A DNA stretch of 64,000 nucleotides, from NCBI GenBank assembly GCA_020881915.1, contig JAJFPB010000003.1:4712001-4776000 (forward strand), in the 5' to 3' direction. The stretch's first letter is position 1; each line of letters opens with the position of its first letter. The notes under the pieces are model-generated. The model made no database searches and was not told the DNA's origin. It was given only the letters and a program-made list of their open reading frames with translations. Source of the stretch: Paramyrothecium sp. XJ0827. Lineage: Eukaryota > Ascomycota > Sordariomycetes > Hypocreales > Stachybotryaceae. Of the stretch, positions 10,113 to 33,398 are shown one piece after another. The position numbers and the translations under genes are program-made.

Positions 10113-10114
10113 TG

Positions 10115-10721
10115 TGTGACGATCTGAGGGTAGCCTTACACCGGAAGGTATAGGGTAACTAAGGATCGTTGGGGGTTTGTTTGTCCTTAGATAGAACGAT
10201 GGGAAAGTATCTGAAGCACATAAGGGGTTGTCACTAGTCTATGAGAGAATAGTGCGATGAAGGTTATCTTGGGGACTGTATGTTATTGATAGCTGGTTGT
10301 CTTCTATCTATCCTGAGGTAGAGTTCTCCCATCTATATACTTGTCGTGTTATCTGGGATCTGGGGATCATACTTCAGATCCCTAGATCCGGATCTGGGGA
10401 TCATTCTCTAGATCCTATGATCTCGCCCTTATTGGTTGGAGGGGCCGCTAGTTTTCTTTCTGCCTAGCCAGGCTGGTACTGTACCCCTTTGAATCCCTAG
10501 GATGGCTACAGCGTCGCGCCCAACGTATTCCCCTGTTGTGCGCCTGAACCTGTTACTCTGTTGGTCCCACGTGACTATGTCTTTGGTGAGGGTCGGCATG
10601 TGTTTGAATTGTGGTCCTCCAACCGGTTCGTCTAGTTCCTCTACGTAGCATCTGTTATAGCCGGTGCGGGTCATTGTTATTCTGTTCTGGCTTAGTCATG
10701 AGGTTAGTGCGGGTCGTGATA
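10115..10721 (-). repeat. 5' LTR of element A (607 bp)
   Basis: TGTGACGATC...GGTCGTGATA; the terminal CA has become TA. In the transcriptional direction of the element this is the upstream LTR. The sequence just inside it (ATTGATAGCTCTTG on the minus strand) is shared with elements C and D and is the place for a primer-binding site, but I cannot match it to a tRNA. Confidence 0.92.
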
Positions 10722-11213
10722 TAGTAGGTTCTAGTCTAGATACAAGGTATAGAACCTCCTATCTATATACCCAGGTCTTATCCCGCCGGGACATATATAA
10801 GGTAGTGCTTATGCTCATCAAGCAAGTATAATTATAGCTAGGTCACTAGATCACTTATTATTTATAATCTAGTATTCCTACTAGATTACTATAAGGTTAT
10901 AATCCATTAATCTATATTAGTAGGTTTCTGTAGCTCTTCTATTATTTATAGGAATCTTCTTCTATGTAGATCTATTATCTATACTAGGTTTTTTTCTACA
11001 TATTAGCCTAAGAGTCCTATCCTATTAGGGCTAGTATATTACTAGTCTTGGCCTATTCCCTATACTAGCCCTAAATATACTAGCCTTAGCTAGTACTAGC
11101 CTAGTGTAGCTGGTCTATTTATTGTCCTAGTATAGTAAGGCTAGTATATCCTATATATACATTTCTATATGACTTTCTATAGCTTAGTTATAACCTTGGG
11201 TCAGGTTATAATA
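10722..11213. mobile_element. Solo LTR 'B', right part
   Basis: Continuation of 2615-2790. It begins inside the region that aligns with LTR A (AACCTCCTATCTATATAC) and ends TTGGGTCAGGTTATAATA. It is followed by the AGCTA target-site copy (11214-11218) and then by ankyrin coding sequence. It contains several CTAGCC/CTAGTA-rich stretches without coding potential. Confidence 0.65.
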
Positions 11214-11376
11214 AGCTAGTAGTAAAACTTTTACTTAAAAAGGGTATAATTATTTTTAATATATCTAATAAATATAGTAAAATTTCTTTATAGTTAGTAA
11301 TTATAGAATTATATAAAAAATTAACTAAGATCTTACTTAAGAGTAATATAAAATTTAAGATAAGGGATAGTATTAG
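11214..11376 (+). pseudogene. Ankyrin-repeat gene, segment 2
   Basis: Directly after the solo LTR the frame reads LVVKLLLKKG, then IIELYKKLTKILLKSN and IRDSI, with one stop. This is the ankyrin helix-loop pattern in phase with segment 1 once the LTR and one AGCTA are removed (GAG-CTA-GTA-GTA-AAA). It ends at the ATTAG target site (11372-11376) of element C. Confidence 0.75.
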
Positions 11377-11962
11377 TATTATAATCTATACTAATCTTAT
11401 AACTAAGCTAGAATAGAATAACTATAACCTATTTAGGCTATAATAAATACTATATAAAAGAAATAAAGAAACTAATTTATAAACTATAGCTTAAGATAAT
11501 ATTTACTCTTACTAAAGATATAATTATATAAGACTAATAAAGTAAAAGATTTAAGTATATAATAGAAAAATATATTAAATATAATACTATAGCTATTCTA
11601 GGGCTTAATAAGAATATAATACCTACTTAGTAAAATAAAGAGATACTTTAGGAATAATATTAGTAAAAAAGATTATAGTAAGTAAGTACTTATAGTAATT
11701 AAAAAGAATTATAGTAATCTAATTAGTATAAATAACTATATAAATAGTAAGTCCTTTATATATATTTTATTAAATACTTAATAGCTATTAATAATATATA
11801 GTTCCTAAAATAATCTTTATTATATTATTTTTTTATAAACTAGTAATAATTTCTTATATACTTTAAACACTTTTCTATTATTTTATTTAAGAATAAATAA
11901 ACCCTAAATAATTCTTAGTTATTTTATATCTTTAAATATAAAGCTACTCCTAGATTATTATA
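11377..11962 (+). repeat. 5' LTR of element C (586 bp)
   Basis: TATTATAATC...AGATTATTATA. It aligns end to end with 20586-21171. Its sequence is unlike the LTRs of A and D even though the interiors are homologous. Confidence 0.88.
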
Positions 11963-13606
11963 TATTAATAGCTTTTATTTTAAGTAATATTATTATACCT
12001 AAAGTAATATTAAAAATAATAAATAAATTAACTAAGTTAACCCCTAAGAGAAAGAAAGTAGCCTACCTTATAGTACTAAGGCCTCTACTTACTAAAGTTA
12101 CTTCTAAGAAAACCCCCTTAGGAGATAATATTATTATAAATAAAGACCTAGCTTTATAATTAGACTTTAATAATAATAATAAGATTATTACTTTATAAGT
12201 AAAAGTCTAAAAGAATATTTAAATTACTAATAAAAAACTTAATTAATTTTAAAATAATATTTTTAATATTTAATAAGTTTATAAGCTTAAGTAATTTATT
12301 AAAAACCTAAAAAAAAAAAAATTAAAATAATATAATTTTATATAAAGAAATTTAAAAGAAATAAAGAAATATTTAAATAACTTTAAGATATAAATCTTAG
12401 TAAAATAATAGGAACTTAAAAGAATCTAGAAGTTATTTTATAAACTAAAAAGCCTAAGCCCTTTAATAGTACCTTAAGTAAGCTCTAAATATTTATTATA
12501 TTACTTAAAGTATATTATTTAGATTATTTCTTACTCTTTATATAAAATTATAATAAAGTTATATTTATAACTTATAATTTAATTAAAAAAGTATAAATCT
12601 AGTTTAAATTTACTTTTTAAGATTATATTAATAATATTTCTATTTTTTAAATAAAATATATAGAACTTATTTTTTTAAATTTTTAAATATTTAAAAAAGA
12701 AATTAAATATATCTTTAGAATTACTAATAAGATATATAATATTAAATAAGCTCTTAATTTACTTAAATAAATTAAATTCTATATTAAATTTATTATTAAG
12801 TTTCTTTATATTACTATATTACTTTATTAGTTAGAAAATATTCTAAAAAAGATCTTCTATAATAAAATTAAGCCTAATATAAAAAATAAACTTATTAAAG
12901 TAAAGTATAATAAAATCTTATTATTAAAATATATATATAAAGTAGTAGAAATTAATAACTAAAACTAAGAATATTATAAGAAGAGAAAATAAAAAAATAA
13001 AGTATAAAGCTTTAAGATCTCCTACTAAGTAAACTAAAAGAAGAAAAAATTTATTTCTACTTCCTTTAGAACTATATTAAGATCTATAGAAATTAATATA
13101 ATCTAGAAGGCTAATAAAGAATTTATATACTATAATTATAAAAAAAAAGAATATTATATTTATAATTATTAAAATAAAATATAAAATAAAAAAAAAACCT
13201 ATTTCTAGTTAGTTTAAGAAAATTAATATAATATTAATATAATTAAGAAATAATTAATTAATATTATTACTAAATAAGAACCTACTAAAGAAATCTCTAA
13301 TTAATAAATAATAATTAAAAATATCTCTAATATTACTAGTTTAATTAATTTACTATAAGGAACCCCTATAATTAGTAAATCCTTAGATAATAAATTAGAA
13401 TCTAATATAAGAACTACTAAAGGTACTTTACTTCTACTTAATTATATATTAATTAAAGCTAGAACTAAGTAATATAATTTATTTTTTAGAGATTAGGAAG
13501 TATATATCTAAGTAGTAACTATAAAGGTAGCTATAAGTCTATAGAAAGTAAAATTTATTATTAACTCTTAATATAATTCCCTATTTAATTTTAATTATTA
13601 TAGATA

Positions 13607-13654
13607 ACGTACATACATAACGAGTGGGCCAACATAACGAGTGGGCCATAAATC
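13607..13654 (+). repeat. Left TIR with two internal 15-bp repeats
   Basis: 48 bases identical to the reverse complement of 15418-15465. The doubled ATAACGAGTGGGCCA is a likely transposase-binding site, by analogy with other pogo-like elements. Confidence 0.9.
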
Positions 13655-13704
13655 CCTCATCCTACATCTCAATCAATTGATCAAATGATTCACCATAACT
13701 AGCC

Positions 13705-15162
13705 ATGACAAACTCAATTAATGAGACTAATCTCAATCTTGCTCTTCAGGCTCTTCAGAGGGACCCAAAAATAAGCCTGCGACGTGCTGCAGCTATCTAC
13801 AATATCCCCCGTCAAACATTAACTCGCCGTCAGCAAGGCGTATCTTCTCGACGCGATACTATGCCTAATCTACGTAAACTATCTGATCTTGAGGAACAGA
13901 TGATAGTTCAATATATTCTTGACTTAGATCTGCGAGGATTTTCTCCCCGGCTTCGTGGTGTTGAAGATATGGCTAATCGACTACTTGCTGAGCGAGAGAT
14001 GCCTCCTGTTGGGCCACGCTGGGCCTCGAATTTTATTAAGCGGCAACCAGAGCTCAAGACGCGTTTCTTTCGCAGATATGACTACCAGAGAGCCAAATGC
14101 GAAGATCCAATCGCGATAAACGCGTGGTTCTCGCTCGTGGAGAACATAATCGCGAAGTACGGCATAAGATCAGATGATCAGTACAACTTTGATGAGACTG
14201 GCTTTATGATGGGCGTTATTACGAGCGGCATGGTTGTTACAGGCGCAGAGAGGCGTGCAAACCCTAAAAGGTCCAGCCTGGGAAACCGCGAATGGGTCAC
14301 AGCGATTGAATCGATCAATGCTGAAGGGTGGGCGCTGCCGCCGTTCATCATTGTTGCAGGCCAATATCATCTCTCGAGCTGGTATCGGGAAAGTAACCTC
14401 CCGGCCGATTGGGCTATTGCAACTACAAAAAATGGCTGGACCGATAACGAGATAGGCCTCGAGTGGCTAAAGCACTTCAATCGGCATACAATCAAAAGAT
14501 CAAATGGTGCCTATCGTCTTCTAATCCTTGACGGGCATGAGAGCCACCATTCGGTCGCATTTGAGGATTTCTGCAAGGAGAATAAGATTATTACGCTCTG
14601 TATGCCGCCTCATTCATCTCATCTACTCCAGCCGCTAGATGTGGGCTGCTTTGGGCCGCTCAAGAAGGCTTATGGTCGAGAAATAGAGCATTTGATCAAA
14701 TGCTCTATAACACACATTTCCAAGACCGAGTTCTTTCCCGCCTTCTACGCTGCACACCGAGCCACTATGACCAAATCGAATATTCAGGGAGGCTTTAAGG
14801 GCCCCGGACTTGCTCCTTTAGATGCGAACCATGTGATCTTAAAGCTTGATATCCGGTTACGAACTCCAACGCCTGCTATTGATGAGCCTGAGCTGCCTGC
14901 CCCTTGGACTTCAAGGACTCCAAAGACAGTTAGGGAAACAGAATATCAATCTGAATATTTAAGAAGACGAATCAGGAGACATAAGAGTAGCTCTCCAGCA
15001 TCAATTATTGAGGCCCTGAACTCATTCTCTAAGAGTTTACTTGCAAATCAGCATAAGATGGCATTACTAGAGGCTGAGGTCCGCGATCTTCGAGAGGCAA
15101 ATGAGATACTAAGCCGGCGCCGGAGAGAAAAAAGAAACGCCTACGCAATGGAGGGACAATGA
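13705..15162 (+). CDS. pogo/Fot1-family DDE transposase
   Basis: 485 residues from ATG 13705 to TGA 15160-15162. The N-terminus (about 10-60) is a Psq-type helix-turn-helix (ISLRRAAAIYNIPRQTLTRR), followed by a CENP-B-like DNA-binding half (about 60-130, WASNFIKRQPEL). The DDE_1 catalytic core has D163 (NFDETGF), D276 (LILDGHESH) and D312 (LQPLDVG), giving a DD35D spacing. The C-terminus is a basic coiled coil. The first start inside the left TIR border fits. All three Asp residues are present, so the catalytic part looks functional. Relatives usually carry a C-terminal zinc knuckle; here it sits in the next frame (15159-15359), overlapping by ATGA, which suggests a one-base frameshift near the end. 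A two-protein arrangement is possible but less likely. Confidence 0.92.
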   Translation: MTNSINETNLNLALQALQRDPKISLRRAAAIYNIPRQTLTRRQQGVSSRRDTMPNLRKLSDLEEQMIVQYILDLDLRGFSPRLRGVEDMANRLLAEREMPPVGPRWASNFIKRQPELKTRFFRRYDYQRAKCEDPIAINAWFSLVENIIAKYGIRSDDQYNFDETGFMMGVITSGMVVTGAERRANPKRSSLGNREWVTAIESINAEGWALPPFIIVAGQYHLSSWYRESNLPADWAIATTKNGWTDNEIGLEWLKHFNRHTIKRSNGAYRLLILDGHESHHSVAFEDFCKENKIITLCMPPHSSHLLQPLDVGCFGPLKKAYGREIEHLIKCSITHISKTEFFPAFYAAHRATMTKSNIQGGFKGPGLAPLDANHVILKLDIRLRTPTPAIDEPELPAPWTSRTPKTVRETEYQSEYLRRRIRRHKSSSPASIIEALNSFSKSLLANQHKMALLEAEVRDLREANEILSRRRREKRNAYAMEGQ

Positions 15163-15359
15163 CTATAGGGGAAGGTCAGGTATCGATTGATCAATTGGAT
15201 GTAGATACGCAGGTAGTAGCTGAATCGTCGAGGCGAGGTGGTCAAGGAAGATCGGGGCAGCCGACCCAGCGGCGATGTGGTGTATGCGGCAAGCCCGGCC
15301 ACAATGCACGAACATGCAAGATAGAGGTAGAGGTCTCTGGGCAAGAGTATAGCGATTAG
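15159..15359 (+). CDS. Zinc-knuckle tail of the transposase in shifted frame
   Basis: 66 codons starting at the ATG that overlaps the transposase stop. Contains RRCGVCGKPGHNARTCK, a clear CCHC knuckle, and an acidic end (GQEYSD). It stops before the right TIR. Most probably it is the detached C-terminus of the 13705-15162 product; a separate small protein or programmed frameshifting cannot be excluded. Confidence 0.6.
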   Translation: MTIGEGQVSIDQLDVDTQVVAESSRRGGQGRSGQPTQRRCGVCGKPGHNARTCKIEVEVSGQEYSD

Positions 15360-15417
15360 TTTTAATTGATCAGATGGTCTATGGTGTTTTAATTGAGGTT
15401 CCTTTCTCGAGGGTTGA

Positions 15418-15465
15418 GATTTATGGCCCACTCGTTATGTTGGCCCACTCGTTATGTATGTACGT
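15418..15465 (-). repeat. Right TIR of the pogo-like element
   Basis: Reverse complement of 13607-13654 with no mismatch over 48 bp, ending GTACGT before TA. Confidence 0.9.
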
Positions 15466-18400
15466 TATAATAAAATCTTATAGGTATTTTATATAATATA
15501 CTAATATTTAATTTATTTTACTATTAAAGTAAAATAAAATATATTCTCTATATATATATAAGGTACTAAAATAGAAAATCCCTATATATTTAAGGAAATA
15601 CCTTACTAGAAGATTAAAATATATTACCTTAGATATTAAATTATAATTCTTAAATTAAGTAAGAAATACCTTAAAGAATATTACTTTAAAGCTAGAAAAA
15701 CCTATAAAACTAATAAATATTAGATATATTATTAAATAAAAATTAATTAACTTTATAGACTCTAAGGTAAATATAAAAAAAAATATACTTAATTAAAAAA
15801 TATATTTTTAAATAAAGACTATAAATATATTAAAATAATAATCTTATAATTCCTTAATAAATTCCTAAGAAGAAAATACTACTATAAAATAAGGTACTTT
15901 ACTTATAATTATAAGAAAAAAGTACCTATAGCTTATAGAACTAAATCTAATTTTATAGAGATTAGTTATATAGAAAATAGCCTATATTACTACTATAATT
16001 ATAAAAAATATAAAATAAAAAGAATATACTTTTATAAGGAAATAGAACTTAAGATAATAGGTATTATAAAAGAAGAATATACTTAGAAGTATAAAGAATA
16101 TTATTACTTATATTAAATCTACTATAGATATATTATTTATATAAAAGAAATAAGTAATAAATTACCTATTAGTATTAAAGAAATTAAATAAAGAATTAAT
16201 AAAATCTTAATATAAAATAACTAAATAAAAAATAAGATCTATTAATTATAATTAGATTATAAGATAATAGAAAAAAGTAATAAACTATTATTATAGTTTA
16301 AAAGTAGAAATAAATAAAATAGTAAAAGTACTATATTAACTTTATAGTTTAAGATATAATTATTAATATTAGAGTAAATATTAGTACTAAGGAAAATTAT
16401 ATTAATCTTAATTTTATAAACTAATATAAAATCCTATAAAGAAGAAAAAAGAAATTATATAAAGCTATAAATATAGAAGAAATATTTTTTATTTATAATA
16501 AGAGACTAATAAATAAAGAGGTAATTTTTTATATAATAATATAGAAAACTACTTATAATATTACCCTTAATATAATATAAATATAATCTAATATACTTCT
16601 AAATAAACTATAGCTAAAGAATCAAAGATCTACCTTTAATTAAGGTAATAGCTAAATTATAATAATAAAGTTATAACTACCTTAAGTAAGAAAAAGAAAA
16701 CTAAAAAAGAAAAAAGAAGTAAATATTTATAATAAAACCTTATTTAAGAAGAAAAAGACTCTCTTAAAATAAAAGAATTATTAAGTAAAAACTAAAGTAT
16801 TAATTAATAATAAAATATAATCTAATATATAATATAAATAGAGCTAAATAATATTTACTTATAAATAAAAAGTAATTAATCTTATTTATATTCTTATATA
16901 TAGTATTAAGAAATAAATATAAGTAAAATAAGAAGTAAAAAATAAACTTATAAATATTCTAGAAAAGTACTATAAATATATAAAATTATTTATAAAAAAC
17001 CTAGAAAGTAGATTCCCTAAATACTTAAAATAGAACTATAAAATCTACTTAATTAATAAAAAAAAGACCTACTTCTTACTAATTTATAATCTTAATACTA
17101 AGAAACTAAGAATATTAAAAGAATATATTAATAAGAACCTTAAGAAAAGATATATTTAATAGTTAATATTATTTACTAAATATTTTATTATATTTATTCT
17201 AAAAAAAATAAAAAACTCTATTTATATATAGATTATTACTAATTAAATAATATTATAATTAAAAAATAAGATATTTTTACTTCTTATTACTAAAATAAGA
17301 AATTACTTATATAATAAAATAATTTTTATTATATTTAATTTTAAAAATATCTATTACTTAATTAAAATAAAGAAAAGAAATAAATAGAAGATTACTTTTT
17401 ATATAAAATTTAGATTCTTTAAAATCTTAGTAATACTATTTAATTTAATTAATATACTAGCTATATTTTAATATATAATTAATTATATTTTAAGAGAATT
17501 TATAAATAACTTTATTATTATTTACTTAAATAATATATTTATTTTCTTAGAGAATAAAAAATAATATAAAAAGTATATATATAAAGTACTTTAAGTACTA
17601 TAAGATATTAAACTTCTAGTAGAACCTACTAAGAGTAATTTCTATATATATAAAGTAGACTTCTTTAGATATATTATTTAATTTAATAAAATTTAAATAA
17701 AAAAAAGTAAAATTATAGTAATTAAAGAATAAAAGCCCCCTATAAATAATATTAAAAATATTTAAAGTTTCTTAAAATTTATAAACTATTATAAATACTT
17801 TATTAAATACTTTAGAAAAATAACTAAATTACTAATAAATTTAATAAGAAAGAATATATTTTTTAAATAAATTATAAAGACCTAAAAAACCTTTAAAGAA
17901 ATTAAAGAATAAATTATTAGTAAATCTATTTTAATAACTTTTAATCTAAAGAAATAAATTATTTTAAAAACTAATATCTCTAATTATATCTTTAATATTA
18001 TTATTAAATAAATAAAAAATAATAAATTCCTATATTTTATTACTTTTTAATCTAAGAAAATTATTAAATCTTTACTTTACTATCTTATTTATAATAAAGA
18101 ATTTATAGTAATTATTAAAGTATTTAAGGAATTTTAATATTACTTTATAAATATAAAATATAAAATTAAGATTTATATTAATTACTAAAATATTACTTAT
18201 TTTATTATAATTTAAATCCTAATAATAAAATAAATTTATTATATAGAAATACTTATATTCTTTAATTATAAGATTATTTATTAAAAAGATCTAAGAATAA
18301 ATATATTAATATATTAAATTAAAAAAGTAAATATAAGTAAAAGATCCCTAAGGTAATATAGTAATTACTATATTTTAATTTAGAAAAAAATTATAAATAA

Positions 18401-20585
18401 AAAACTATTAATTTAATTAAAACCTATAAAATTAAAATAAAAAATAAATAATATAATAAAATTAGAAAATAAAGTAAGAAATATATTATATATATTATAA
18501 AAGTACCTATAAAAGTAAGTATAAAATATAATATAGTACCTATATATAATAACTAAATATAGATTCTAAAAAAAATATAAAAAGAAATCTTAACTAAAAT
18601 CTATAGGTATTATATTATTAGATATAAGGGAATTAAAAAAACTATAGAAGTAATATATTAAATATATAGCTATTCTAGAATAAAGAAAGATATAAAAAGA
18701 GTTATAAGAAAATATAATATTTATAATAAAACTAAAATATTAAGATATAAATCTTATAAATATCTTAAATTACTATTAGTATTAACTAGATCTTAGTAAT
18801 TAATTTTATAAGACTTTATTATTAAGTTTCTTTAATTAAAGAAATTAAATTCTAAAAATAACTATAATAGTATTTTTATTATTATTAATAGGCTTACTAA
18901 ATATATTTATTTTATTACTTATAATAAGGTAATAAATACTAAAAATATAATATATTACTTTTATAAGTATATTATAAGCTAATATAATATATTAGAAGAA
19001 ATTATTTCTAATAAAGAATCTATATTTATATTTAAGTTCTAGTAAGAATTAGTAGCTCTCTTAGATATTAATTATTAGCTAAGTATTACTTATTATTTAT
19101 AAATAAATAAGTAAATAAAATATATAAATTAAATCTTAAAATAATATTTTTATTATTATATTAATTATTAATAAAAAAATTAAGTAAAATAGCTACTTAT
19201 AGTATAATATTATTATAATAGTACTAAATTAGAAACTACTAAAATATTATTATTTTATATAAATTATAAATTTAAATTAATTATTAAATATACTAAATAT
19301 AAAAAACCCTTAATAAATTAACTATTATTAAAATAAAAGAACTTAAATAATTATATAATATAATAAAATAAGAAATTTTATTTATAAATTAGAAAATAAA
19401 GAAATATTATAATATAAAAATATTACTAGAACTAATCTTTAAGAAAAGAAATATAATTTACTTACTTAAAAAAAATATAAAAATAATATAATTAAGTAAT
19501 AAATTAAATTATAAAAAACTTAAATCTTTTAAAATCTTATATAAAATTAAAGATATTAATTATAAATTAGAGTTACTTAATATAATAAAATATTACTTAG
19601 TATTTTATATTATACTTTTAGAACTAATATTAAATAATAAATTTACTAAAAAATCTATTAAGGTACTTATAGAAAAAGAAAAATATAAAGTAGAATAAAT
19701 TCTTATATATAAATAAACCAAAAATAATAAAAAATTATATTTTATTAAATAAAAAAACTATAATAAAAGTAAAAATATCTAGAAATCCCTTAAATATCTC
19801 CTAAATACTAAATAAAAAATTACTATATTTAAGAAAAAAACTAGAAAGTAGAACCCTTAGTAACTAAAGAACCTACCCCTAAAAAATTACTAAGATCTAA
19901 TAAAATCTAATTAAGCTTATTAAATAAACCTATTTACTAAAGATTATTAATAACTATATACTTATAGGTATTTAAAGTAGGGACTAAATCCTTCTTATTT
20001 AATTCTACTATATCTTAAGTAAATAACTCCTTCTCTTTCTCTTTAGTTTTCTACTTAATAATATAAATATAAAATAAGTAACTAGCTATAAAAACTAAAT
20101 CTACCTATAATTTAGTAAGCTAAGAATAAAGCCTAAGAAGAGCCTTACTTATCTTATTCTCCTCTTTTATTAATTTATTATAGGTATTTATTACTTTAGT
20201 AACTAAAAGAAAATAAGTAGAAAAAAAGATATAAAGAAATAAAAGATAAATAAGACTAAGTAACTAAAATACTATTATAAGCTTAGCTATAATAAATATA
20301 CTTACTATAATAATAAGAATCCCTATTTAATATAAGATATACCTTCTTCTACTTAAAATAATAAAAGTATAATATATTAATAAAATAACTATAAAGAGCA
20401 ATATAATAAGTAAGGGATTTTTATTTAATAGTAGTATTATAAGACTTATTATCTAATATAATATTAATATATAAATTAAAAAAAAGGAAGAATATATATA
20501 CCTACTAAGGAAAACTAGGAACTAATAATCTTATATAAAGAAGAATACTAAGCTATAAGACTTAATCTTAGAAGAAGAAGTATTA

Positions 20586-21171
20586 TATTATAATCTATTT
20601 TAATCTTATAACTAAGCTAGAATAGAATAATTATAACCTATTTAGGCTATAATAAATACTATATAAAAGAAATAAAGGAACTAATTTATAAATTATAACT
20701 TAAGATAATATCTACTCTTACTAAGGATATAATTATATAAAACTAATAAAGTAAAAGATTTAGATATATAATAGAAGAATATATTAGATATAATACTATA
20801 GCTATTCTAAGGCTTAGTAAGAATATAGTACCTACCTAATAAAATAAAGAAATACTTTAGAAATAGTATTAGTAAAAAAGATTATAGTAAGTAAGTACTT
20901 ATAGTAATTAAAAAAGATTATAGTAATTTAATTAGTATAAATAATTATATAGATAGTAAATCTCTTATATATATTCTATTAAATACTTAATAGCTATTAA
21001 TAATATATAGTCCCTAAGATAACCTTTATTATATTATTCTCTTATAAATTAGTAATAATTTCTTATATACTTTAGATACTTTCTTATTATTCTATTTAAG
21101 GATAAATAAACCCTAAATAATCCTTAGTTACTTTATATCTTTTAGTATAAGGCTACCCCTAGATTATTATA
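20586..21171 (+). repeat. 3' LTR of element C (586 bp)
   Basis: Aligns with 11377-11962 and is slightly less mutated. It is followed by ATTGG and then ankyrin coding sequence. Confidence 0.88.
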
Positions 21172-21840
21172 ATTGGCTATATACTACTATATATTGTAGC
21201 TTTATAAGGTAATACTATAATAAGTAAAATCCTACTTAACTAAGGTCTTAATATTAAGACCTAAGATATTTTCTATCTAATACTACTAAGTATTATAGCT
21301 AAGAGGGATTATTTTAAGGTAGTTAAGCTCCTTAAAAAATAGGAGCCAATGTCGAGGCAAGGGGTAGGGCAGATAAGATACTATTACTCCATGCCATTTG
21401 CAATAATAACGCAATAATAGTTGAAGTCTTACTAGAGAATAGCGCCGATATCGAAGCAAAGGATTTTCAGTTTGGCCTTACACATGACTTCGAGATTGTG
21501 GTCCGTATTCTGCTCAAGAAACGGCCTAATCTCGAGGCTGAGTATGGACAGGGCCTGACGGCACTATCTTTAGCAACCCTGAGGCAGCATGCAAAAGTAA
21601 TCGAGCTACTGCTGGAGCGAGGCGCAAATGTTGATGCCAAAGTTGCAGAAGCTTTGAAAGAGAAGACCGGTCCTTCGCTGCTGGGCGATAAAGGTAAGTT
21701 CCAAAGACCGTGTTTTAATATCTTGGTTTTTTTTTCTGCTAATATACTAATAATTTGTAGTGACATATGCTGATATTATCGTTATCTCGGCTCTGCACTT
21801 TATACAGAGAACTAATGGAGAGCAATATTCTAAGCCTGTT
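21172..21840 (+). pseudogene. Ankyrin-repeat gene, segment 3, with an intron
   Basis: After the ATTGG target copy the frame reads GYILLYIVAL, then NTIISKILLN and YFKVVKLL with stops, in phase with segment 2. A one-base shift at an A-run (about 21333) leads to well kept repeats: GANVEARG, NNAIIVEVLLENSADIEAKD, VVRILLKKRPNLEAEYGQ and HAKVIELLLERGANVDAK. RIP damage fades over this segment. A plausible intron lies at 21694-21760 (GTAAGT donor, ACTAAT, TTGTAG), after which the frame stays open to the CTGTT target site of element D (21836-21840). Past element D the joined frame continues from 29825 with LEIVAFHEAFRKWLKRDFH, broken by two TAG codons. That last part is uncertain. Confidence 0.7.
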
Positions 21841-22491
21841 TGTGACGATCGGGGGTAGCCTTATACCGGAAGGTATAGGGTAGCTAAGGATTATTAGGGG
21901 TTTATTTATTCTTAGATAGAATAATAGGAAAGTATCTAAAGTATATAAGGGGTTATTATTAGTTTATAAGAGAATAATATAATAAAGGTTATCTTAGGGA
22001 CTATATATTATTAATAGCTAGTAATCTTTTATTTATCCTAAGGTAAAATCCTCCTATTTATATACTTATTATAATTACTTTATTAAGGTAATTACTAATA
22101 TACTTAGTTTAGTATACTTAGTTATAGTATATAAGTATATATATATAATTAGCCCTTCCTTTACTTAGTATTATATAGGAATTTACTTATATTCTTAGTT
22201 CTAAGGTAATTAGGTACTAGCCCCTTTTTTACTTTACTAAGTAGGGACTATAGTTTATTAGATCCCTAGAATAGTAGCTATATTATATCTAATATATTTC
22301 CCTATTATCTATATAAACCTCTAGTTATATTAGTCCTATATAATTATATCCTTAGTAAGAATTAATATATACTTAATTTATAGTCTACTAGTTAGTTTAT
22401 CTAGCTTCTCTATATAGTATTTATTATAACTAATATAAGTTATATTTATTCTATACTAGCTTAGTTAATGGGGTTAATATAGGTTATAATA
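21841..22491 (-). repeat. 3' LTR of element D (651 bp)
   Basis: TGTGACGATC...GGTTATAATA. The first ~240 bp and the last ~230 bp resemble LTR A; the middle differs, which accounts for the greater length. Confidence 0.88.
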
Positions 22492-22639
22492 TAATACTCC
22501 CCTCCCTAAGGCCTACTCTAGAGGCCTAGCTATTCCTTTATATAAATTAAACTAATTCCTAGATTTCTTAGTTATAGCCTAGTAAATATTTCTTCTTCTT
22601 TCCCTTCCTTATAATAACCTTAGAGACTACTATTTACTA

Positions 22640-23130
22640 TTATTTTTATACTAATACTATTTTTAGATTTAGTTTTACTATTATATCTTATATTTATTAT
22701 TACTTAAAGGATATAAAGTATAAAATACTATTTAGATTAAAGTATTACTAGATATATACTTATTTTAGCTATCTTTATAATTTAATAGATATTCCTCTAA
22801 TATCTTATAGATTCTTCCTTCTATATATTTCTTAGTTCTTACTAATTATAGCTTAGTTTATTAAATAATTAATAAGAATAAGAAACTAAAGAAGAAGAAA
22901 ATTAAGGTAGAAGAAGAGTTACTTTATTATTAAGTTACTCTCTCTAAGTCCCTAGCTTATTTAATATAATTATATTATTAGTACTAAGCCTTAAAAAATA
23001 AAAGTACTTATTTAGTAGAAAATACTAAGGCTAAGAAGGAGATTCTTATTAAAGAGATAGAAATTATCTTTAATATTTAATTCTTAGTTTATTCTAATAT
23101 TACTTTTTCTCTAGATATAGATTAATAGAT
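22640..23130 (+). pseudogene. Relic of the antisense coiled-coil ORF in element D
   Basis: At the same position and orientation as 3620-4117 of element A, the plus strand keeps a Lys/Glu-rich heptad-like frame with stops (KVEEELLYY, then ALKNKSTYLVENTKAKKEILIKEI). It is too mutated for more than a positional assignment. Confidence 0.4.
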
Positions 23131-26100
23131 CTTAGGTTTTAAAGCTTTATTTAATTTCGGAATTTCTTTAGTTTTAAGCTAGCTTTATTTAGGTATTTAA
23201 GTAGTTTTTAAGTATTTTTACTTTTATTATAATTTTTTTATTTAATAAAATATAGTTTTTCTTTATTTTTAGTTTATTTATATATAAGTATTTATTTTAC
23301 TTTATATTCTTCTTCCTTTATAAGTACCTTAATAGTTTCTTCTATAGATTTATTATCTAGTATTAGTTCTAGAAGTATAATATAAAATACTAGGTAATAT
23401 TTTATTATATTAAGTAATTCTAGTTTATAATTAATATCTTTAATTTTATATAAGATTTTAAAGGATCTAAGTTTTTTATAATCTAATTTATTACTTAATT
23501 ATATTATTTTTATATTTTTTTTAAGTAAGTAAACTATATTTCTCTTCTTAAAAATTAACTCTAATAATCTTTTTATATTATAATATTTCTTTATTTTTTA
23601 ATTTATAAATAAAATTTCTTATTTTATTATATTATATAATTATTTAAGTTCTTTTACTTTAATAATAGTTAGTTTATTAAGAAGTTCTTTATATTTAGTA
23701 TACTTAATAATTAGTTTAAATTTATAATTTATATAAAATAATAATATTTTAGTAGTTTTTAATTTAGTACTATTATAATAGTATTATACTATAGGTAGCT
23801 ATTTTACTTAATTCTTTTATTAGTAATTAATATAGTAGTAGAGATACTATTTTAAGTTTTAGTTTATATATTTTATTTATTTATTTATTTATAAATAATA
23901 AGTAGTACTTAGCTTATAATTAATACCTAAGAGAGTTATTAATTCTTACTAGAATTTAAATATAAATATAGATCCTTTATTAGAAATAATTTCTTCTAGT
24001 ATATTATATTAGTTTATAATATACTTATAGAAGTAATATATTATATCTTTAGTATTAATTACTTTATTATAGGTAATAAAATAAATATACTTAATAAGCC
24101 TATTAATAATAATAAAAATACTATTATAGTTATTTTTAGAGCTTAGTTTCTTTAATTAGGGAAACTTAATAATAAAGTCCTATAAAATTAATTACTAAGA
24201 TCTAATTAGTACTAGTAGTAATTTAAGGTATTTATAAGATTTATATCTTAAGACTTTAGTTTTATTATAAATATTATATTTTCTTATAATCCTTTTTATA
24301 TTTTTCTTTATTTTAAAGTAGTTATATATTTAGTATATAGCTTCTATAGTTTTTTTAATTCCCTTATATTTAATAATATAGTATTTATAGATTTTAATTA
24401 AAATTTCTTCTTATATTTCTTCTAGAATCTATATTTAATTATTATATATAGGTACTATATTATATTCTATATTTACTTCTATAGATACTTCTATAATATA
24501 TATAATATATTTTTTACTTTATTCTCTAATTTTATTATATTACTTATCTTCTATTTTAATTTTATAGGTTTTAATTAGATTAATAGTTTTCTATTTATAG
24601 TTCCCTTTTAAGTTTAAATATAATAGTTATTATATTACCTTAGGGATTTCTTATTTATATTTACTTTTTTAGTTTAGTATATTAGTATATCTATTCTTAG
24701 ATCCTTTTTAGTAAATAATTTTATAATTAAAGAATATAAGTATTTCTATATAGTAGATTTATTTTACTATTAGGGTTTATATTATAATAAAGTAAGTAAT
24801 ATTTTAGTAATTAATATAGATCTTAATCTTATATTTTATATCTATAAGGTAATATTAGAATTCCTTAAATACTTTAATAATTACTATAAATTCTTTATTA
24901 TAAATAAGGTAATAAAGTAGAGATCTAGTAATTTTCTTAGATTAGAAAGTAATAAGATATAGAAGTCTATTATCTCTTATTTATTTAATAGTAGTACTAA
25001 GGGTATAATTAAAGGTATTAGTTTCTAAGATAATTTACTTCTTTAAATTAAAGGTTATTAAAATAGGTTTATTAATAATTTAGTCTTTAATCTCTTTAAA
25101 GGCTCTTTAGGCTTCTAAGATTTATTTAAAAAGTATATCTTTTTTAATTAGATCTATTAATAGTTTAATAATCTTTCTAAAGTATTTAATAAAGTATTTA
25201 TAATAATTAATAAATCCTAGGAAACTTTAAATATCTTTAATATTATTTATAGGGGATTTCTATTTCTTAATTACTATAATTTTACTTTTTTCTATTTAGA
25301 TTTTATTAAATTAAATAATATATCTAAGGAAATTTACTTTATATATATAGAAGTTACTTTTAGTAGGTTCTACTAAGAGTTTAGTATCTTATAGTACCTA
25401 AAGTACTTTATATATATACTCTTTATATTATTTTTTATTTTTAAAAAAAAAAATATATTATTTAAGTAAATAATAATAAAGTTATTTATAAATTCTCTTA
25501 GAATATAATTAATTATATATTAAAATATAGCTAATATATTAGTTAAGCTAAATAGTATTACTAGGGTTTTAAAGAGTTTAAACTTTATATAAAAGGCAGT
25601 TTTCTATTTATTTCTTTTCTTTATTTTAATTAGGTTATAGGTACTTTTAAGATTAAGTATAATAAAAATTATTTTATTATATAAATAATCTCTTATTTCT
25701 ATAATAAGGAATAAAGATATTTTATTTTTAATTATAATATTATTTAATTAATAATAATCTATATATAGGTAGAGTTTTTTATTCTTTTTTAGAATAAATA
25801 TAATAAAGTATTTAATAAGTAATATTAATTATTAGATATATCTCTTTTTAAGGTTCTTATTAATATATTCTTTTAATATTCTTAGTTCTTTAATATTAAG
25901 GTTATAAATTAGTAAGAAGTAGGTCTTTTTTCTATTAATTAAGTAGATTTTATAGTTCTATTTTAAGTATTTAGGGAATCTACTTTTTAGGTTTTCTATA
26001 AATAACTTTATATATTTATAGTACTTTTCTAAGATATTTATAAGTTTATTTTTTACTTTTTATTTTACTTATATTTATTTCTTAATACTATATATAAGAA

Positions 26101-29100
26101 TATAAATAAGATTAATTACTTTTTACTTATAAGTAAATACTACTTAGCTCTATTTATATTATATATTAGGTTATATTCTATTATTAGTTAATACTTTAGC
26201 TTTTACTTAATAATCTTTCTATCTTAGGAGGGTCCTTTCTTTTTTAAATAGGGTTTTATTATAAATATTTATTTCCTTTTCTTTCTTCTACTTTCTTTTT
26301 CTTATTTAAAATAGTTATAATTCTACTATTATAACTTAGCTAGTATCTTAGTTAAAGGTAGGTCTTTAATTTTTTAATTATAGTTTACTTAGAAGTATAT
26401 TAGATTATATATATATAATATTAAAAGTAACTTAATATATAGTCCCTTATATTATTATATAGAGAACTACTTCTTTATTTATTAGCCCTTAGTTATAGGT
26501 AAATAAGACTTCTTTTATATTTATAGCTTTATATAGTTTCTTCTTTCTTTTCTATAGGATTTTATATTAATTTATAAAGTTAGAATTAATATAATTTTCC
26601 TTAGTACTAGTATTTATTCTAGTATTAATAGTTATACCTTAGATTATAAAGTTAATATAATACCCTTACTATTTTATTTATTTTTACTTTTAGATTATAG
26701 TAATAGTTTATTACTTTCTTCTATTATTCTATAGCCTAGTTATAATTAATAGATCTTATTTTTTACTTAGTTACTTTATATAGGGATTCTATTAATTCTT
26801 TATTTAGCTTCTTTAATATTAGTAAGTAGTTTATTACTTATCTCTTTTATATAAATAGTATATTTATAGTAGATTTAATATAAATAGTAGTACTTTTTAT
26901 ACTTCTAAATATATTTTTTCTTTATAGTACCTATTATTTTAGATTCTATTTCCTTATAAAGATATATTTTTTCTACCTTATATTTTTTATAGTTATAGTA
27001 ATAATATAGATTATCTTCTATATAACTAATCTTTATAAGACTAGATTTAATTTTATAGGTAGTAGGGTTTTTCTTTTTATAGTTATAGATAAAGTACTTT
27101 ATTTTATAGTAGTATTCCCTTCTTAGGAGCCTATTAAGAAATTATAAGATTATTATTTTAATATATTTATAGTCTTTATTTAGAAGTATATTTTCTAACT
27201 AAGTATACTCTTTTCTATATTTACTTTAGAATCTATAAAGTTAATTAATTTTTACTTAGTAGTATATTTAATATTTATTAGTTTTATAGATTTCTTCTAC
27301 TTTAAAGTAATACTCTTTAGAGTATTTCTTACTTAGTTTAAGGATTATAATTTAATACTTAAGGTAATATATCTTAATCTCCTAGTAAGGTATTTCCTTA
27401 AATATATAGGGGTTTTTTATTTTAGTACCTTATATATATATAGAAAATATATTTTATTTTATTTTAGTTATAAGGTAGATTAGATATTAGTATATTATAT
27501 AAAATACCTATAAGATTTTATTATATCTATAATAATTAGGATTAAATAGGGGATTATATTAAGAGTTAATAGTAAATCTTACTTCCTATAGGCTTATAGC
27601 TACCTTTATAGTTATTACTTAAATATATACTTTCTAATTCCTAAAGAGTAAATTATATTACTTTATTTTAATTTTAATTAGTATATAATTAAGTAGAAGT
27701 AAAGTACCTTTAGTAGTACCTATACTTAATTCTAATTTATTATTTAAGGGTTTATTAATTATAGGAGTTTCTCTTAGTAAGTTAATTAAGCTAATAATAT
27801 TAAAGATATTTTTAATTATTACTTATTAATTAGGGATATTTTTAGTAGGTTCTTATTTAGTAATAATATTAATTAATTATTTTTTAATTATATTAATATT
27901 ATATTAGTCTTCTTAAATTAACTAGAAATAGGTTTTCTTTCTATTCTAGGGCTTACTTCTATAGTTCTATATATAATATTTCTTTTTTCTATAGTTATAG
28001 TAGAAGAAGTTTTTTCCTTATTTCTAAATAATATTAATTTCTATAGATCCTACTATAATTCTATAAGCTATAGAAATAAATTTCTTCTTTCTTTAGTTTA
28101 CCTAGTAGGGGGTTTTAAATTTCTTTGCCTTATCTTCTTATTCCCTTTCTTTCTAGTATTTCTAATTATAATTATTAATTTCTACTACTTTATATATATA
28201 TTTTAATAATAAGATCTTATTATATTTAATTTTAATAAGTTTATTTTTTATATTAGATTTTACTTTATTATAAAAGATTTTCTTTAGAATATTCTCTAGC
28301 TAATAAAGTAATATAGTAATATAAAGGAACTTAGTAATAAGTTTAATATAAGATCTAATTTATCTAAGTAAGTTAAGGGCTCTCTTAGTATCTTATATCT
28401 TATTAATTATCTTAAAAATATATTTAATTTCTTCTTTAAACTTCTAGAAGCTTATAAAAATATATTTAATATAATTTATTTAGAAAATAGAAGTATTATT
28501 AATATAATCTTAAAATATAAACTTAAATTAGATTTATATCTTCCTAATTAAATTATAAGCTATAAATATAATTTTATTATAGTTTTATATAAAGAATAAG
28601 AAGTAATTTAAGTAATATACTTTAAGTAATATAATAAATATTTAAAGCTTACTTAAGGTACTATTAAAGGGCTTAGGCTTTTTAGTTTATAAAATAGCTT
28701 TTTTATTCTTTTAGGCCTCTATAACTCTACTAAGATTTATATTCTAAAGTTATTTAAGTATTTTCCTATTTTTCTTAGATTTCTTTATATAGAATTATAT
28801 TATATTAGCTATTTCCTTTTTAAGGGTTTTAATAAGTTACTTTAATTTATAGGTTTATTAAGTATTAAGAATATTATCTTAGAATTAATTAAGTTTTTTA
28901 TTAGTAATTTAAATATTCTTTTAGACTTTTATTTATAAGGTAGTAATTTTATTATTATTATTAGAATTTAATTATAAAGCTAGATCTTTACTTATAATAA
29001 TATTATCTCCTAAAGGGATTTTCTTAGAAGTAACTTTAGTAGGTAGAGACTTTAGTATTATAAGGTAGGCTATTTTCTTTTCCTTAGGGATTAGCTTAGT

Positions 29101-29168
29101 TAACTTACCTACTATTTTTAATATTACTTTAGATATAATAATATTACCTAAAATAAGAGCTATTAATA

Positions 29169-29819
29169 TATAATAATTAGAGGTAGTTTTATACTAGAAG
29201 ATATAAAGTAGCTAAGGATTATTAGGGATTTATTTATCTTTAAATAAAATAATAGAAAAGTATTTAAAGTATATAAGGGGTTATTACTAGTTTATAAGAG
29301 AATAATATAATAAAGGTTATCTTAGGGATTATATATTATTAATAGCTAGTAATCTTCTATTTATTCTAAGGTAGAATCCTTCTATTTATATACTTATTAT
29401 AATTACTTTATTAAGGTAATTACTAGTATACTTAATTTAATATACTTAGTTATAATATATAAGTATATATATATAATTAGCCCTTCCCTTACTTAGTATT
29501 ATATAGAAATTTACTTATATTCTTAGTTCTAGGGTAATTAGGTACTAGTTCCTTTTCTACCTTACTAAGTAGGGACTATAGTCTACTAGATCCCTAGAAT
29601 AGTAGCTATATTATACCTAATATATTCCTCTATTATTTATCTAAACCTCTAGCTATATTAGTCTTATATAATTATATTCTTAATAAGAACTAGTATATAC
29701 TTAATTTATAGTCTACTAGTTAGTTTACCTAGCTTCTCTACGTAGTATCTATTATAACCAATACAGATTATATTTATTCTATACTGGCTTAGTTAACGGG
29801 GTTAGTGCGGGTCGTAATA
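29169..29819 (-). repeat. 5' LTR of element D (651 bp)
   Basis: Starts TATAATAATT (TGTGACGATC before mutation) and ends GGGTCGTAATA. The last ~90 bp are nearly unmutated. Confidence 0.88.
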
Positions 29820-30060: not shown

Positions 30061-30147
30061 TCACCTCTTGCGGTTCTTGCGGCCAGCAGCATTGGCATTG
30101 TTGGTCTCGGCTCCTTAAGGGTGACGAGCCTCAAGCTCCTCAAAGTC
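30061..30147 (-). pseudogene. Sixth precursor repeat beyond the present stop
   Basis: In the same frame as the precursor, the 29 codons after its TAG read DFEELEARHP, a TAA, then GAETNNANAAGRKNRKR and a final TGA at 30061-30063. This is clearly one more repeat copy. The TAG at 30148-30150 and the TAA at 30115-30117 could each be one C-to-T change (CAG, CAA). Confidence 0.7.
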
Positions 30148-31035
30148 CTATACCTCATCATCGTCCTCCTGACGCTTGTCCTCCTGGCGCTTGTTGTTGC
30201 CGTTGCGGTTCTTGCGACCGTTGGCGTTGGCGTTAGTCTTGGCTCCCTGGTGGTGGCGAGCCTCAAGCTCTTCGTAATCCTCTTCATCAATCGCCTCTCG
30301 CTTGTTGTTGCCGTTACGGTTCTTGCGACCATTGGCATTAGCGTTGGTTTTCGCGCCCTGGTGATGACGGGCCTCAAGGCCCTCCTCCCTCTTCTTGTTG
30401 CCATTGCGATTCTTACGGCCATTGGCGTTGGCATTGGCATTGTTGGTCTTGGCACCCTGGTGGTGGCGAGCCTCAAGCTCCTCGTAATCCGCTTCATCAA
30501 TTTGCTCCCGCTTGTTGTTGCCATTGCGGTTCTTGCGGCCATTAGCATTGGCGTTGACATTGTTGGTTTTGGCGCCTTGGTGATGACGAGCCTCGAGGAG
30601 CACGTCAGCGACAGCAGCAGCGGCAGCGCTGTCGACTACATAACCATCTGAATCATGGACCTCAAGCTCGTCTCGCTTCTGGTCGCGGTTGTTGGCCGCA
30701 GCAGCATTCTTGCCACCCTTGCGGCCATTAGCATTGTTGGTCTGAGCACCCTGATGATGGGGCTGCGGCATGGTTAGTATTTGTAGTCGTGCTTAGCGCT
30801 TCCCCGGAGCACTTACCTCGCGAATCTCTAGAGCATCGGTCAATGGGAAGGCAACAGCAGGCACCGCCATCATCACAGCAATAGGGGCCTGCTCTTTGTG
30901 TTAGATACTTGCCGCTTTCCCAACGCAAAAAGGTATACTTACGGCATACCGGCAGATGACGCTGCCGGATGGGGTAATAGAGAGTGACAAGCCTTGAGCC
31001 GCAAAGACGCTCAGAATAACAGCTGCAGAATGCAT
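30148..31035 (-). CDS. Kex2-processed repeat precursor, putative dikaritin-type RiPP
   Basis: Exons on the minus strand are 31035-30943, 30888-30817 and 30762-30148; both introns are 54 bp with GTAAGT donors and keep phase 0. The protein has 259 residues. The N-terminus is hydrophobic (MHSAAVILSVFAAQ, later APIAVMMAVPAVAF), a secretion signal. From residue 56 there are five copies of HHQGA[QK]TN inside a repeat ending ANGRKNRNGNNKR. Dibasic KR sites follow QK, NN, K, NN and NN and would be cut by Kex2-like protease. Linkers are acidic (EQIDEADYEELEAR and similar). Signal peptide, KR-bounded repeats and an adjacent UstYa gene are the hallmarks of UstA/PhomA-type precursors. No Tyr-bearing core like YAIG is present; the conserved candidate core is RHHQGAKTN. 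Alternatives are another Kex2-processed repeat (KEP) protein or, less likely, a pheromone, but there is no WxW-type motif. Confidence 0.8.
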
Positions 31036-32487
31036 CTTGGAACAATTTTGATACAATGAAGTGTGAAAAAAGATATGTAACTGAAAGTCAAAGTTAAATT
31101 ATGGTCTACCTGAGAACCAATGGGATCGAAGAGAAGTCGCGTCAAGCGATGAAAGGGGAGTAAGAAAGAATGGTGACCAGTTGAAGAATGATGGTTGAGA
31201 GTTTGAGCAGGTTGAGAACCTTTATACAGCAAGACAGCTGCCAACAACTTCGTTCCATGTAAGTAAAGGCTTGTCAACTAAGCCTATATGCTAGCAGAAG
31301 CCAGCCTGTTCCCTGGCATTACCTTTCGGCATGGACAATAATAGCACGCACAGGGTGATGAAACTTGGGATTTTCCATTGTCTCGTCTCATGGTGCCGAA
31401 AAGCCGGCTCGCCTGGCGGTTAGGACGAAATAATTCAGACGTAGCTGGGCCGCTGTCTACCTCATTCGCCGTAACTGTCAAACGGTAACGACAGTGTCTT
31501 GGGGTTATAAGTTGTGGGGTGTTGTGGAGACTTGTCGAGACAAGCTCTGCGTGTGGGCAAATAAACTCCGGCTAGTACGGCACGGCACTTGCAATGGGCT
31601 TTAGGAGGCTTGCTAATTTGCCGCTGGATGGCGACTCGAAGATGGAAGGGGGGGTGAGACAAGGGTTCTCATCACTCGTCGCATGCGTCTACCAGACCTT
31701 GCTCTTTCCCGACACGCATCTTGTACCTCTGTTGTTGGAGATACCGCAGTCAGAGGTGGGCTCTGCATTCCGCTCATGATCTTGAGAAATGCCAAGCTTT
31801 GGATTCTATTTCAATCACAGTCTGTGCATGAAACTGATCGCTTCTCTACCAAAATAGAACACCTATTGTCTTGGTAAACTAGGTTCTCGATCATGTTGTT
31901 ACCTAGAACAGCGGGCCAATGGTGCCCTTGTTGTGCGCTAAGCTGATGCGACGTGCTTCAGCATCCGCAACAGACGCGCTTACCCCTAGCTGTTCCAACC
32001 TGCGATAGTTCAGTAACATGCGTCGCTAAACGTCATTCGACCAGGGTATCCCCCCCTTGTTCACACACACTTCCAGGCTTGTTCCCCACTAGCTCCCGTG
32101 TTTATGCACCAATGAAGGTGCATGCACTCATCCCTCCAACCTCTATCGGGAAATCTCTCCTTGGCTTTTTCGTTCCATGTTTGTCTGACGATGATTTACT
32201 GCTATGGAGTTTGTGGGGTTTGGTTTGAGGCTTGGGCCAAGAGTCGGCCCAATCGAACAATGTCTTCGTCTCATGCGAGATGGCATTCAAACAATCAAAT
32301 TCACCGATTTTCAGGCCCATGCTACCTCAGCACTTGCTCTTTCTATCTTCTTCTTGTGCGACGCGCGCTGTGCGCTGTGATTACCAGTGTCTTTTCTCTC
32401 ATTACGTTTGATCATTTGTTGGCTCTTTCACGATCCTTTCCTTCCAATTCGCCTCTCGCTGTTACATACTTGTAATTCACATTCAAC
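31036..32487. promoter_or_regulatory. Divergent promoter region between precursor and UstYa genes
   Basis: 1452 bp with no supported gene. The position between two start codons facing away from each other suggests shared control. I do not see a defined operator or a clear TATA box. Confidence 0.45.
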
Positions 32488-33398
32488 ATGCATCAAGCCT
32501 ACGAGGCAATCCCTCTTGACGAGGAGAAACAATCCACAGAAAAAGGAAGGTTGTTTTTACGAGCAAGGACGATCGCGCTGGACCAAGATGGCAGACTATG
32601 GAGCATTTTGTCCTGGGTTCTACCAACCATCATGTTTATTACCTCCATCATCCTCTTTGCCGCCTCCTATTCTCTAAGGTACGGCCAATCCTCCGACCTG
32701 TACTTTACGCGGTTGTATTCTCCTTACTGTAAGCTCTTCAGTTTGCCCTGACTGCTCAGACTTTCCCTCACTAAATCGACGTAGCCCCGGCAGCCGAAGC
32801 CGTCGAGTACAAGACAATGCGTTATGACATAACCCCAGCAATGAAAAAGACCGAATATGTTGGCTACGGCCCAGAGGTGGACAAAGCATGGGACCACATC
32901 ACTTACGATGTGGGTGATCAGATGATTTCGAGGGATGCTCTCGACCGCCTGGGTCTTGATCCGAACTCTCTTAAGATCAAAGATTCCAAGACGGGCGAGG
33001 AAGGCTATCGTGTCGGAATGCAGGTATTTCATCAGCTGCATTGCCTCAACCTCTTGCGGCAAGACAGCCACAAAGAGTATTACTTACATCACGGCGGAGA
33101 CGTCGAGGTAGATCCTGAGGATCTACGAGGGCATCTAGGTAAGTTCATGAGGCTCCGGAGTACCTCCGTGGTCGTATTGAACGAATATTGACTCCTATTT
33201 CTACGCGTAGATCACTGCATCGAGATGCTGCGAGTTAGCCTCATGTGTCAAAGCGACATTGGCGTATTCCCTTTCAAATATTACGAGGGATTTGAAGGTC
33301 ATTGGCCAGACTTCAGTACCCTACATACATGTCGAAACTTTGATGCCATCCGCGATTGGGCATTCAACCATGCTGTAATTTTTGGAGACGAGGAATAA
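32488..33398 (+). CDS. UstYa-family (DUF3328) oxidase
   Basis: Exons are 32488-32728, 32785-33138 and 33211-33398; the introns have GTAAGC/TAG and GTAAGT/TAG borders and restore the frame. The protein has 260 residues, the usual family size. A short cytosolic N-terminus (AYEAIPLDEEKQ) precedes one membrane helix (about residues 38-62). Next come the family stem YSPAAEAVEY and EVDKAW, then the two diagnostic motifs HQLHC (163-167) and HLDHC (197-201). UstYa proteins oxidatively cyclise RiPP core peptides in ustiloxin, phomopsin and asperipin pathways, and others act in cyclochlorotine-type pathways. The divergent neighbour is the KR-punctuated repeat precursor, its most likely substrate. The family call is firm; the substrate is inference. 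Confidence 0.92.

Follow-up and report, generated by a model that had tools for sequence, protein, structure and literature searches.

We analysed a 64,000-nucleotide stretch of the genome of the fungus Paramyrothecium sp. XJ0827 (contig JAJFPB010000003.1, positions 4,712,001 to 4,776,000; the whole stretch is called the window below) and found in it a divergently transcribed pair of genes with the layout of a small peptide-modification locus. One gene, on the minus strand at 30148-31035, codes for a 259-residue Kex2-processed repeat protein (KEP), which we call the precursor. The other, on the plus strand at 32488-33398, codes for a 260-residue member of the UstYa (DUF3328) family, and the two have a 1452-bp intergenic region (31036-32487) in common. 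We interpret the pair as a minimal two-gene locus for a ribosomally synthesized and post-translationally modified peptide (RiPP), in which an oxidase from a copper-enzyme family would act on a peptide core that starts with two histidines (HH). The processing and modification steps are ones that we infer from the sequences, and we give this interpretation an even chance of being correct.

The precursor gene has three exons, which we placed by reading splice sites and aligning homologs. Exon 1 (30943-31035) encodes an N-terminus, MHSAAVILSVFAAQG..., that aligns with six database N-termini and that we judged by eye to be signal-peptide-like. Exon 2 (30817-30888) encodes a conserved hydrophobic leader, APIAVMMAVPAVAFPLTDALEIRE, identified in the same alignment, and exon 3 (30148-30762) ends with a TAG stop codon at 30148-30150. 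The two introns, each 54 nt long, are in phase 0, have the form GTAAGT...AG, and contain branch-like sites (TCTAAC and ACTAAC). Alignments to database homologs span both exon junctions, and precursor homologs from other genera share the gene's leader, hydrophobic exon-2 block and repeat motif (six N-termini aligned). One homolog, P0128, appears from its protein sequence alone to retain an intron (REVSH...MQ|PHHQG) at the same point as the second intron of the window gene. The intron calls made in a first-pass annotation of this DNA, on which the fusion of the signal region to the repeats depends, therefore hold. Its three-exon model of a secretory-type precursor also holds, but its boundary at 30061 does not, because that position lies in a decayed sixth repeat unit past the stop codon. 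The precursor has the tandem-repeat organization of a dikaritin-type locus, with at least three repeats between Kex2 sites in a protein of secretory type (the signal peptide again being judged by eye). A search of the organism's own genome (51.8 Mb in 15 contigs) found no second copy of the precursor.

The precursor contains five repeat units, all on the minus strand, of the general form HHQGA(K/Q)TN..., each closed by KR, with acidic spacers between them. Unit 1 (30673-30759) is HHQGAQTNNANGRKGGKNAAAANNRDQKR and has LEIR-EP in front of it. LEAR precedes each of the other four, which are HHQGAKTNNVNANANGRKNRNGNN-KR (unit 2, 30508-30585), HHQGAKTNNANANANGRKNRNGNK-KR (unit 3, 30388-30465), and HHQGAKTNANANGRKNRNGNN-KR twice (unit 4, 30298-30366, and unit 5, 30187-30255). 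The first-pass annotation described five near-identical KR-bounded repeats; there are five KR-closed units, but only units 2-5 are near-identical, and unit 1 (PHHQGAQTNNANGRKGGKN...) is divergent. Among repeats 2-5, codon differences over 26 aligned codons comprise 68 synonymous and 3 non-synonymous changes, and third positions account for 70 of the 73 base differences, counts that come from six pairwise comparisons that are not independent of one another. This excess of synonymous changes shows that the precursor reading frame is under constraint at the protein level. Together, the codon test, the conserved leader and the conserved intron place rule out the possibility that the repeats are a chance pattern or that the introns are wrongly placed. 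The spacers between units 2-5 are 7-14 residues long. Spacers between units carry charges of -2 to -7, and the tails that would be released carry charges of +3 to +5. Tyrosine occurs in none of the five HH units, being confined to the leader and spacers (DEADYEE, DEEDYEE, DGYVV), which agrees with the earlier statement that the Tyr-aliphatic core of characterized members is missing. The precursor has no tryptophan.

Past the stop codon, read-through translation reveals a decayed, untranslated sixth unit (30061-30123, minus strand). It follows the in-frame TAG that ends the gene, has a TAA inside it at 30115-30117, contains several substitutions, and shows up in the search of the own genome as a weak match of its own that includes one stop. 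The region from 30061 to 30150 reads either as the trace of a shortened precursor or as a decaying end. One could argue from this degenerate unit, and from the flanking DNA, that the whole pair is non-functional and decaying beside a mutated AT-rich region. About 450 bp separate the precursor gene from an AT-rich tract, and about 150 bp separate it from a mixed stretch. At 28.0-29.7 kb there is a strong signature like that of repeat-induced point mutation (RIP), with TpA/ApT of 1.47 and (CpA+TpG)/(ApC+GpT) of 0.01, and the mixed stretch at 29.7-30.0 kb scores 1.46 and 0.65 on the same two indices. The precursor gene itself has no RIP signature (0.58 and 1.64), so a RIP-killed gene can be rejected for the precursor, where only the sixth unit has decayed. 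Since units 2-5 differ almost only synonymously and both open reading frames (ORFs) are intact, we regard a decaying locus as highly improbable.

Two database searches, yielding 2 of 554 candidates and 8 of 7994 candidates (the first two included), gave eight relatives of the precursor. They are from Pochonia chlamydosporia, Fusarium gaditjirri, F. oxysporum f. sp. cepae, F. austroafricanum, Microdochium bolleyi and Cytospora mali, with two more; P0128 matches with an E-value of only 0.34, and its assignment to the family rests on the motif. By TBLASTN we found zero relatives in 67 pattern stretches from IMG/VR and 19 GTDB contigs, and Rfam gave 0 matches at its gathering cut-offs. In the nine proteins (the window precursor and its eight relatives), an aliphatic-x-x-Arg motif precedes 36 of 37 HH sites, either directly or via the dipeptide E/D-P. 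The P4 residue at these 36 sites is L in 30, V in 3 and I in 3, and the sole exception is in P0128, at its apparent unspliced intron. For comparison, L, V or I is at P4 of only 11 of the 119 arginines in these proteins that are not associated with HH. The two residues following HH are QG at 27 of the 37 sites, TG at 8, and GG and RG at one each. EP or DP comes before HH at 16 of the 36 readable sites, including one of the five in the window. The KR-delimited tails of the relatives have charges from 0 to +8. The HH-X-G motif, the LxxR processing sites and the E/D-P dipeptides had all gone unremarked in the first-pass annotation.

LxxR has been described as an expanded Kex2 motif (PMC8528282), and the motif of STE13 as X-P or X-A, where X is often D or E (PMC9769878). 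If LxxR is a Kex2 site and X-P a STE13 site, then the same N-terminus, HH-X-G, would result from R|HH and from R|EP|HH. The genome has one match to a Kex2-type P-domain and four to DPPIV_N. We therefore have the following scheme in mind. Kex2 would cut the secretory precursor at the KR behind each tail and at the aliphatic-x-x-Arg site (LEAR or LEIR) before each core, and a STE13-type dipeptidyl aminopeptidase would remove E/D-P from those cores that it precedes. The acidic spacers would be discarded. All five units would then yield a single kind of peptide, consisting of an N-terminal His-His-Gln-Gly and a polar cationic tail of about 20 residues rich in Asn, Gly, Lys and Arg.

The partner gene also has three exons (32488-32728, 32785-33138 and 33211-33398), defined by splice sites and by the Pfam domain PF11807, and its introns are 56 nt and 72 nt long. 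Its product matches PF11807 with 186.5 bits (the cut-off is 25), and has a single hydrophobic helix, presumably membrane-spanning, and the motifs HQLHC and HLDHC. This confirms the divergent 260-residue partner proposed in the first-pass annotation. It also confirms the dikaritin-type architecture, since a KR-closed repeat precursor lies beside a PF11807 gene, with an UstYa protein containing two HxxHC motifs encoded 1452 bp away from it. Relatives of the enzyme are numerous: there are 226 proteins with E <= 1e-10, 120 of which are listed, with 106 further ones beyond these. The closest among the matches listed is P0003 from Stachybotrys elegans, with 75% identity. Of 47 aligned UstYa proteins, 45 have kept both HxxHC motifs; among the 120 listed matches, which include partial sequences, the number is 103. 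A monomer model of P0003, whose alignment drew on 46 of the 120 listed matches, has a mean predicted local distance difference test score (pLDDT) of 84.5 and a predicted template modeling score (pTM) of 0.70, and sets each motif of the HxxHC pair in a helix of its own, the two following a long N-terminal helix. When solved structures resembling the enzyme were sought, we obtained one non-significant sequence match (E = 0.64) and, with Foldseek, 0 of 134 at E <= 0.001.

We made a phylogenetic tree of 58 rows, consisting of the window protein, one paralog, and 56 of the 120 listed matches (64 were left out); three long rows in it (Periconia, Stachybotrys chartarum and P0061) were flagged. S. elegans and Paramyrothecium join the window protein in one group (100/100) inside a clade of 27 rows (97/96); this clade also takes in the branch containing the paralog, a Fusarium group and one from the Nectriaceae. 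This paralog, at locus L017 (C9:1.97 Mb; L017:4379-5321), carries HQLQC where the first HxxHC motif would be, and zero KEP-like ORFs were found within its 10-kb stretch. Its branch-mates P0034 and P0038 similarly have no intact motif pair, so an UstYa branch that is losing the motifs may exist.

The precursor and the enzyme are also neighbors in a second genus. In F. gaditjirri, the precursor homolog FGADI_5762 and the UstYa gene FGADI_5763 have neighboring locus tags and are each listed with a contig of 176,295 bases; within the clade of the window enzyme, FGADI_5763 falls on the Fusarium branch. Within the Paramyrothecium genome, we grouped 28 PF11807 matches into 15 loci, and KEP-like ORFs are present at 6 of these, including the window. 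The detector used was applied to 2129 ORFs in 17 stretches (16 genome stretches and the window) and picked out 6 of them, as compared to 3 of 10,645 shuffled ORFs (0.6 expected). The five others are at L015:21-785, L016:1606-2580, L018:8204-8812, L019:7092-7646 and L021:4864-5094, and their repeats are unlike those of the window: DADAAEKYKLYVDPSKR, AYGRHTDDVP, STNNQAGWGRR, GDPILDIN..SSY and DEEVKVADGFKR. The window pair is thus one of several in this genome that have a common architecture. Nine dikaritin clusters have been reported in Venturia inaequalis (PMC9632046), so several dikaritin-type loci per genome are not unusual.

Several observations weigh against the interpretation of the pair as a di-histidine RiPP locus. 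Adjacency outside the window is demonstrated in one species only, F. gaditjirri. Conservation of the pair in other fungal genomes, which the first-pass annotation proposed to look for, has support to that extent: neighboring tags were found in that species, but in F. austroafricanum the precursor (contig of 18,835 bases; annotated as partial) and its listed UstYa protein (contig of 22,431 bases) are on separate contigs. UstYa relatives far outnumber precursor matches (226 at E <= 1e-10 versus 8 at E <= 10), a contrast that has to be read knowing that low-complexity precursors are harder to find by search. With 15 UstYa loci in the genome, another enzyme could act on the precursor in trans. The constancy of HH is partly by construction, because the sites were located via HH. 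Two units in Cytospora have no HH (LEAREPHP and LEAREPHL), and further LxxR sites without HH occur in F. austroafricanum and P0126. KR is scarce in Microdochium (2 per 8 HH) and Cytospora (1 per 5), and absent from P0126 (0 per 4). In addition, the UstYa-type enzymes of ustiloxin, phomopsin and asperipin are described as cyclizing via Tyr (PMC7329392), a residue absent from the HH units here.

Part of this evidence also fits a serious rival, in which the precursor gives rise to unmodified linear cationic His-His peptides, as a KEP of pheromone, defense or cell-wall type, and the UstYa protein acts on another substrate. The absence of Tyr from the HH units and the greater abundance of UstYa relatives are as this rival would have them, and the combination of Kex2 sites with a STE13-type X-P signature is that of linear KEPs of the alpha-pheromone type (PMC9769878). 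The 2020 survey of Umemura, which covers 7878 KEPs (22% of them near DUF3328 genes), points both ways. It gives a similar HH content for KEPs with DUF3328 (5.7%) and without (3.9%), but two of its di-histidine types have DUF3328 genes within 15 genes of most members: 57 of the 64 KEPs in type G-3 (20 genera) and 45 of the 49 in type G-8 (18 genera). Mating-factor and pheromone KEPs in the same survey have no DUF3328 neighbors, with three exceptions (PMC7329392). Given also the adjacency in F. gaditjirri, we consider it rather doubtful that the peptides stay linear and unmodified.

If the UstYa protein does act on the precursor, its target is probably the HHQG core, because HH-X-G is better conserved than the rest of the unit, and tails as variable as these make unlikely sites for a specific modification. 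The membrane-anchored enzyme would oxidize or cross-link this core in the lumen of the secretory pathway. Copper use is suggested by CctR, a DUF3328 protein described as a copper- and O2-dependent hydroxylase and a binuclear copper oxygenase (PMC12435403). A different role for histidine would be that the His-His peptides are a lumenal or secreted copper carrier, serving UstYa or the cell, and are not a substrate. The predicted N-terminal HH would suit such a carrier, and the authors of the CctR work hypothesize that Cu(I) or electrons reach this copper-dependent enzyme by way of an accessory protein (PMC12435403). Multiplied, protease-released units fit a secreted product better than a carrier, and general copper chaperones could serve instead; we find the carrier role unlikely.

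A bolder form of the di-histidine RiPP interpretation is that the locus belongs to a histidine-core class of dikaritins, in which a pheromone-like precursor matured through LxxR and STE13 sites has its N-terminal His-His-(Gln/Thr)-Gly oxidized or cross-linked by a copper UstYa enzyme, giving a conserved secreted peptide that binds copper or is cross-linked. We put this forward only tentatively and consider it less likely than not. To our knowledge, characterized dikaritins use tyrosine or other non-His chemistry. A two-gene system with a recurring His-His core offers a clean test of whether the UstYa family also does histidine chemistry, and it is only recently that one UstYa/DUF3328 protein was demonstrated to be a copper enzyme (PMC12435403). 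The gene pair also attaches a concrete cleavage rule, aliphatic-x-x-Arg and then E/D-P, to a di-histidine KEP, and KEP searches confined to dibasic sites might overlook relatives like those from Cytospora and Microdochium.

We searched the surroundings of the pair with Pfam, in six frames from 33.4 to 53.0 kb, in plus-strand frames on to 54.5 kb and in only a minor part of the AT-rich sequence to the left, scans in which short exons may be missed, and found no tyrosinase, cytochrome P450, methyltransferase or S41 peptidase at E <= 1e-3. A larger cluster is thus ruled out for the scanned stretches, where the tailoring domains were not found. The matches there were SDR, NAD_binding_10, GST, M14, WSC, MFS, HET and Mid2. 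The M14 match is a zinc carboxypeptidase gene at about 44.2-45.3 kb (plus strand), approximately 11 kb from the UstYa gene, and nothing ties it to the pair. On the other side, a very AT-rich tract extends from 11000 to 29700, with a GC content of 11-20% across much of it. An ORF for a DDE_1/Tc5-type transposase (487 residues; 13699-15162, plus strand) lies inside this tract at near-normal GC content. Adjoining the tract at 3380-10238 (minus strand) is a region resembling a Ty3-type long terminal repeat retrotransposon, in which one scanned frame matches gag, reverse transcriptase, RNase H, integrase and a chromodomain; unlike the tract, this region has ordinary GC content.

Comparison with published systems indicates that the kind of locus is already known, because two widespread di-histidine types of KEP that have DUF3328 neighbors appear in the Umemura 2020 survey (PMC7329392). 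The suggestion in the first-pass annotation that the locus type is new is not upheld in view of G-3 and G-8, and of the five other KEP-like ORFs beside UstYa genes in the same genome. Going by their descriptions, types G-3 and G-8 resemble the window locus in having a Kex2-repeat precursor, an HH motif and, in most members, a DUF3328 gene nearby. The words 'accompanied by P' in section 7 of the survey may apply to G-3 and G-8 or to another type, and section 13 states that the survey was confined to dibasic sites (PMC7329392). Among the 120 listed UstYa matches we found 8 of the 18 genera of G-8 and 3 of the 20 genera of G-3, which supports a connection weakly because 5 of the 19 genera of the Tyr-containing type G-6 are among those matches too. 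The genera named for precursor relatives (Fusarium, Pochonia, Microdochium and Cytospora) differ in being absent from both genus lists as the survey's accessible text gives them. In the accessible part of Le Marquer 2019 the conserved KEP motifs do not include HHQG (PMC6339444). The further suggestion that the product class may be undescribed has so far stood up, as we met no characterized product in the open-access literature examined; a characterized UstYa product with a His core was not found in that literature, supplementary tables being outside the scope of the search.

Relative to the dikaritins (ustiloxin, phomopsin and asperipin-2a, and also victorin), the window locus has in common a signal-type N-terminus, repeats punctuated by Kex2 sites, and an UstYa protein with two HxxHC motifs. 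It differs from them in having no Tyr in its HH units, in its mixture of LxxR and KR sites with E/D-P dipeptides, and in having no tyrosinase, P450, methyltransferase or S41 peptidase domain in the scanned stretches. Because a Tyr core was looked for and is absent, we file the locus as a variant of the KEP/UstYa type and not as a proven dikaritin. As regards the tailoring genes, some accepted clusters likewise lack them (PMC12048977). The alpha-pheromone precursors of ascomycetes share the Kex2 repeats and the STE13-type E/D-P dipeptides; the window precursor differs from them in having an UstYa neighbor and no Trp. Tryptophan is a feature of pheromone cores, and the core thus rules out a pheromone precursor proper. 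Section 6 of the Umemura survey treats Trp in the same way (PMC7329392). CctR is similar to the window enzyme in belonging to the same Pfam family and in having a single membrane helix and an HxxHC(x)nHxxHC arrangement in two helices, and is different in that it acts on a non-ribosomal cyclic peptide (PMC12435403).

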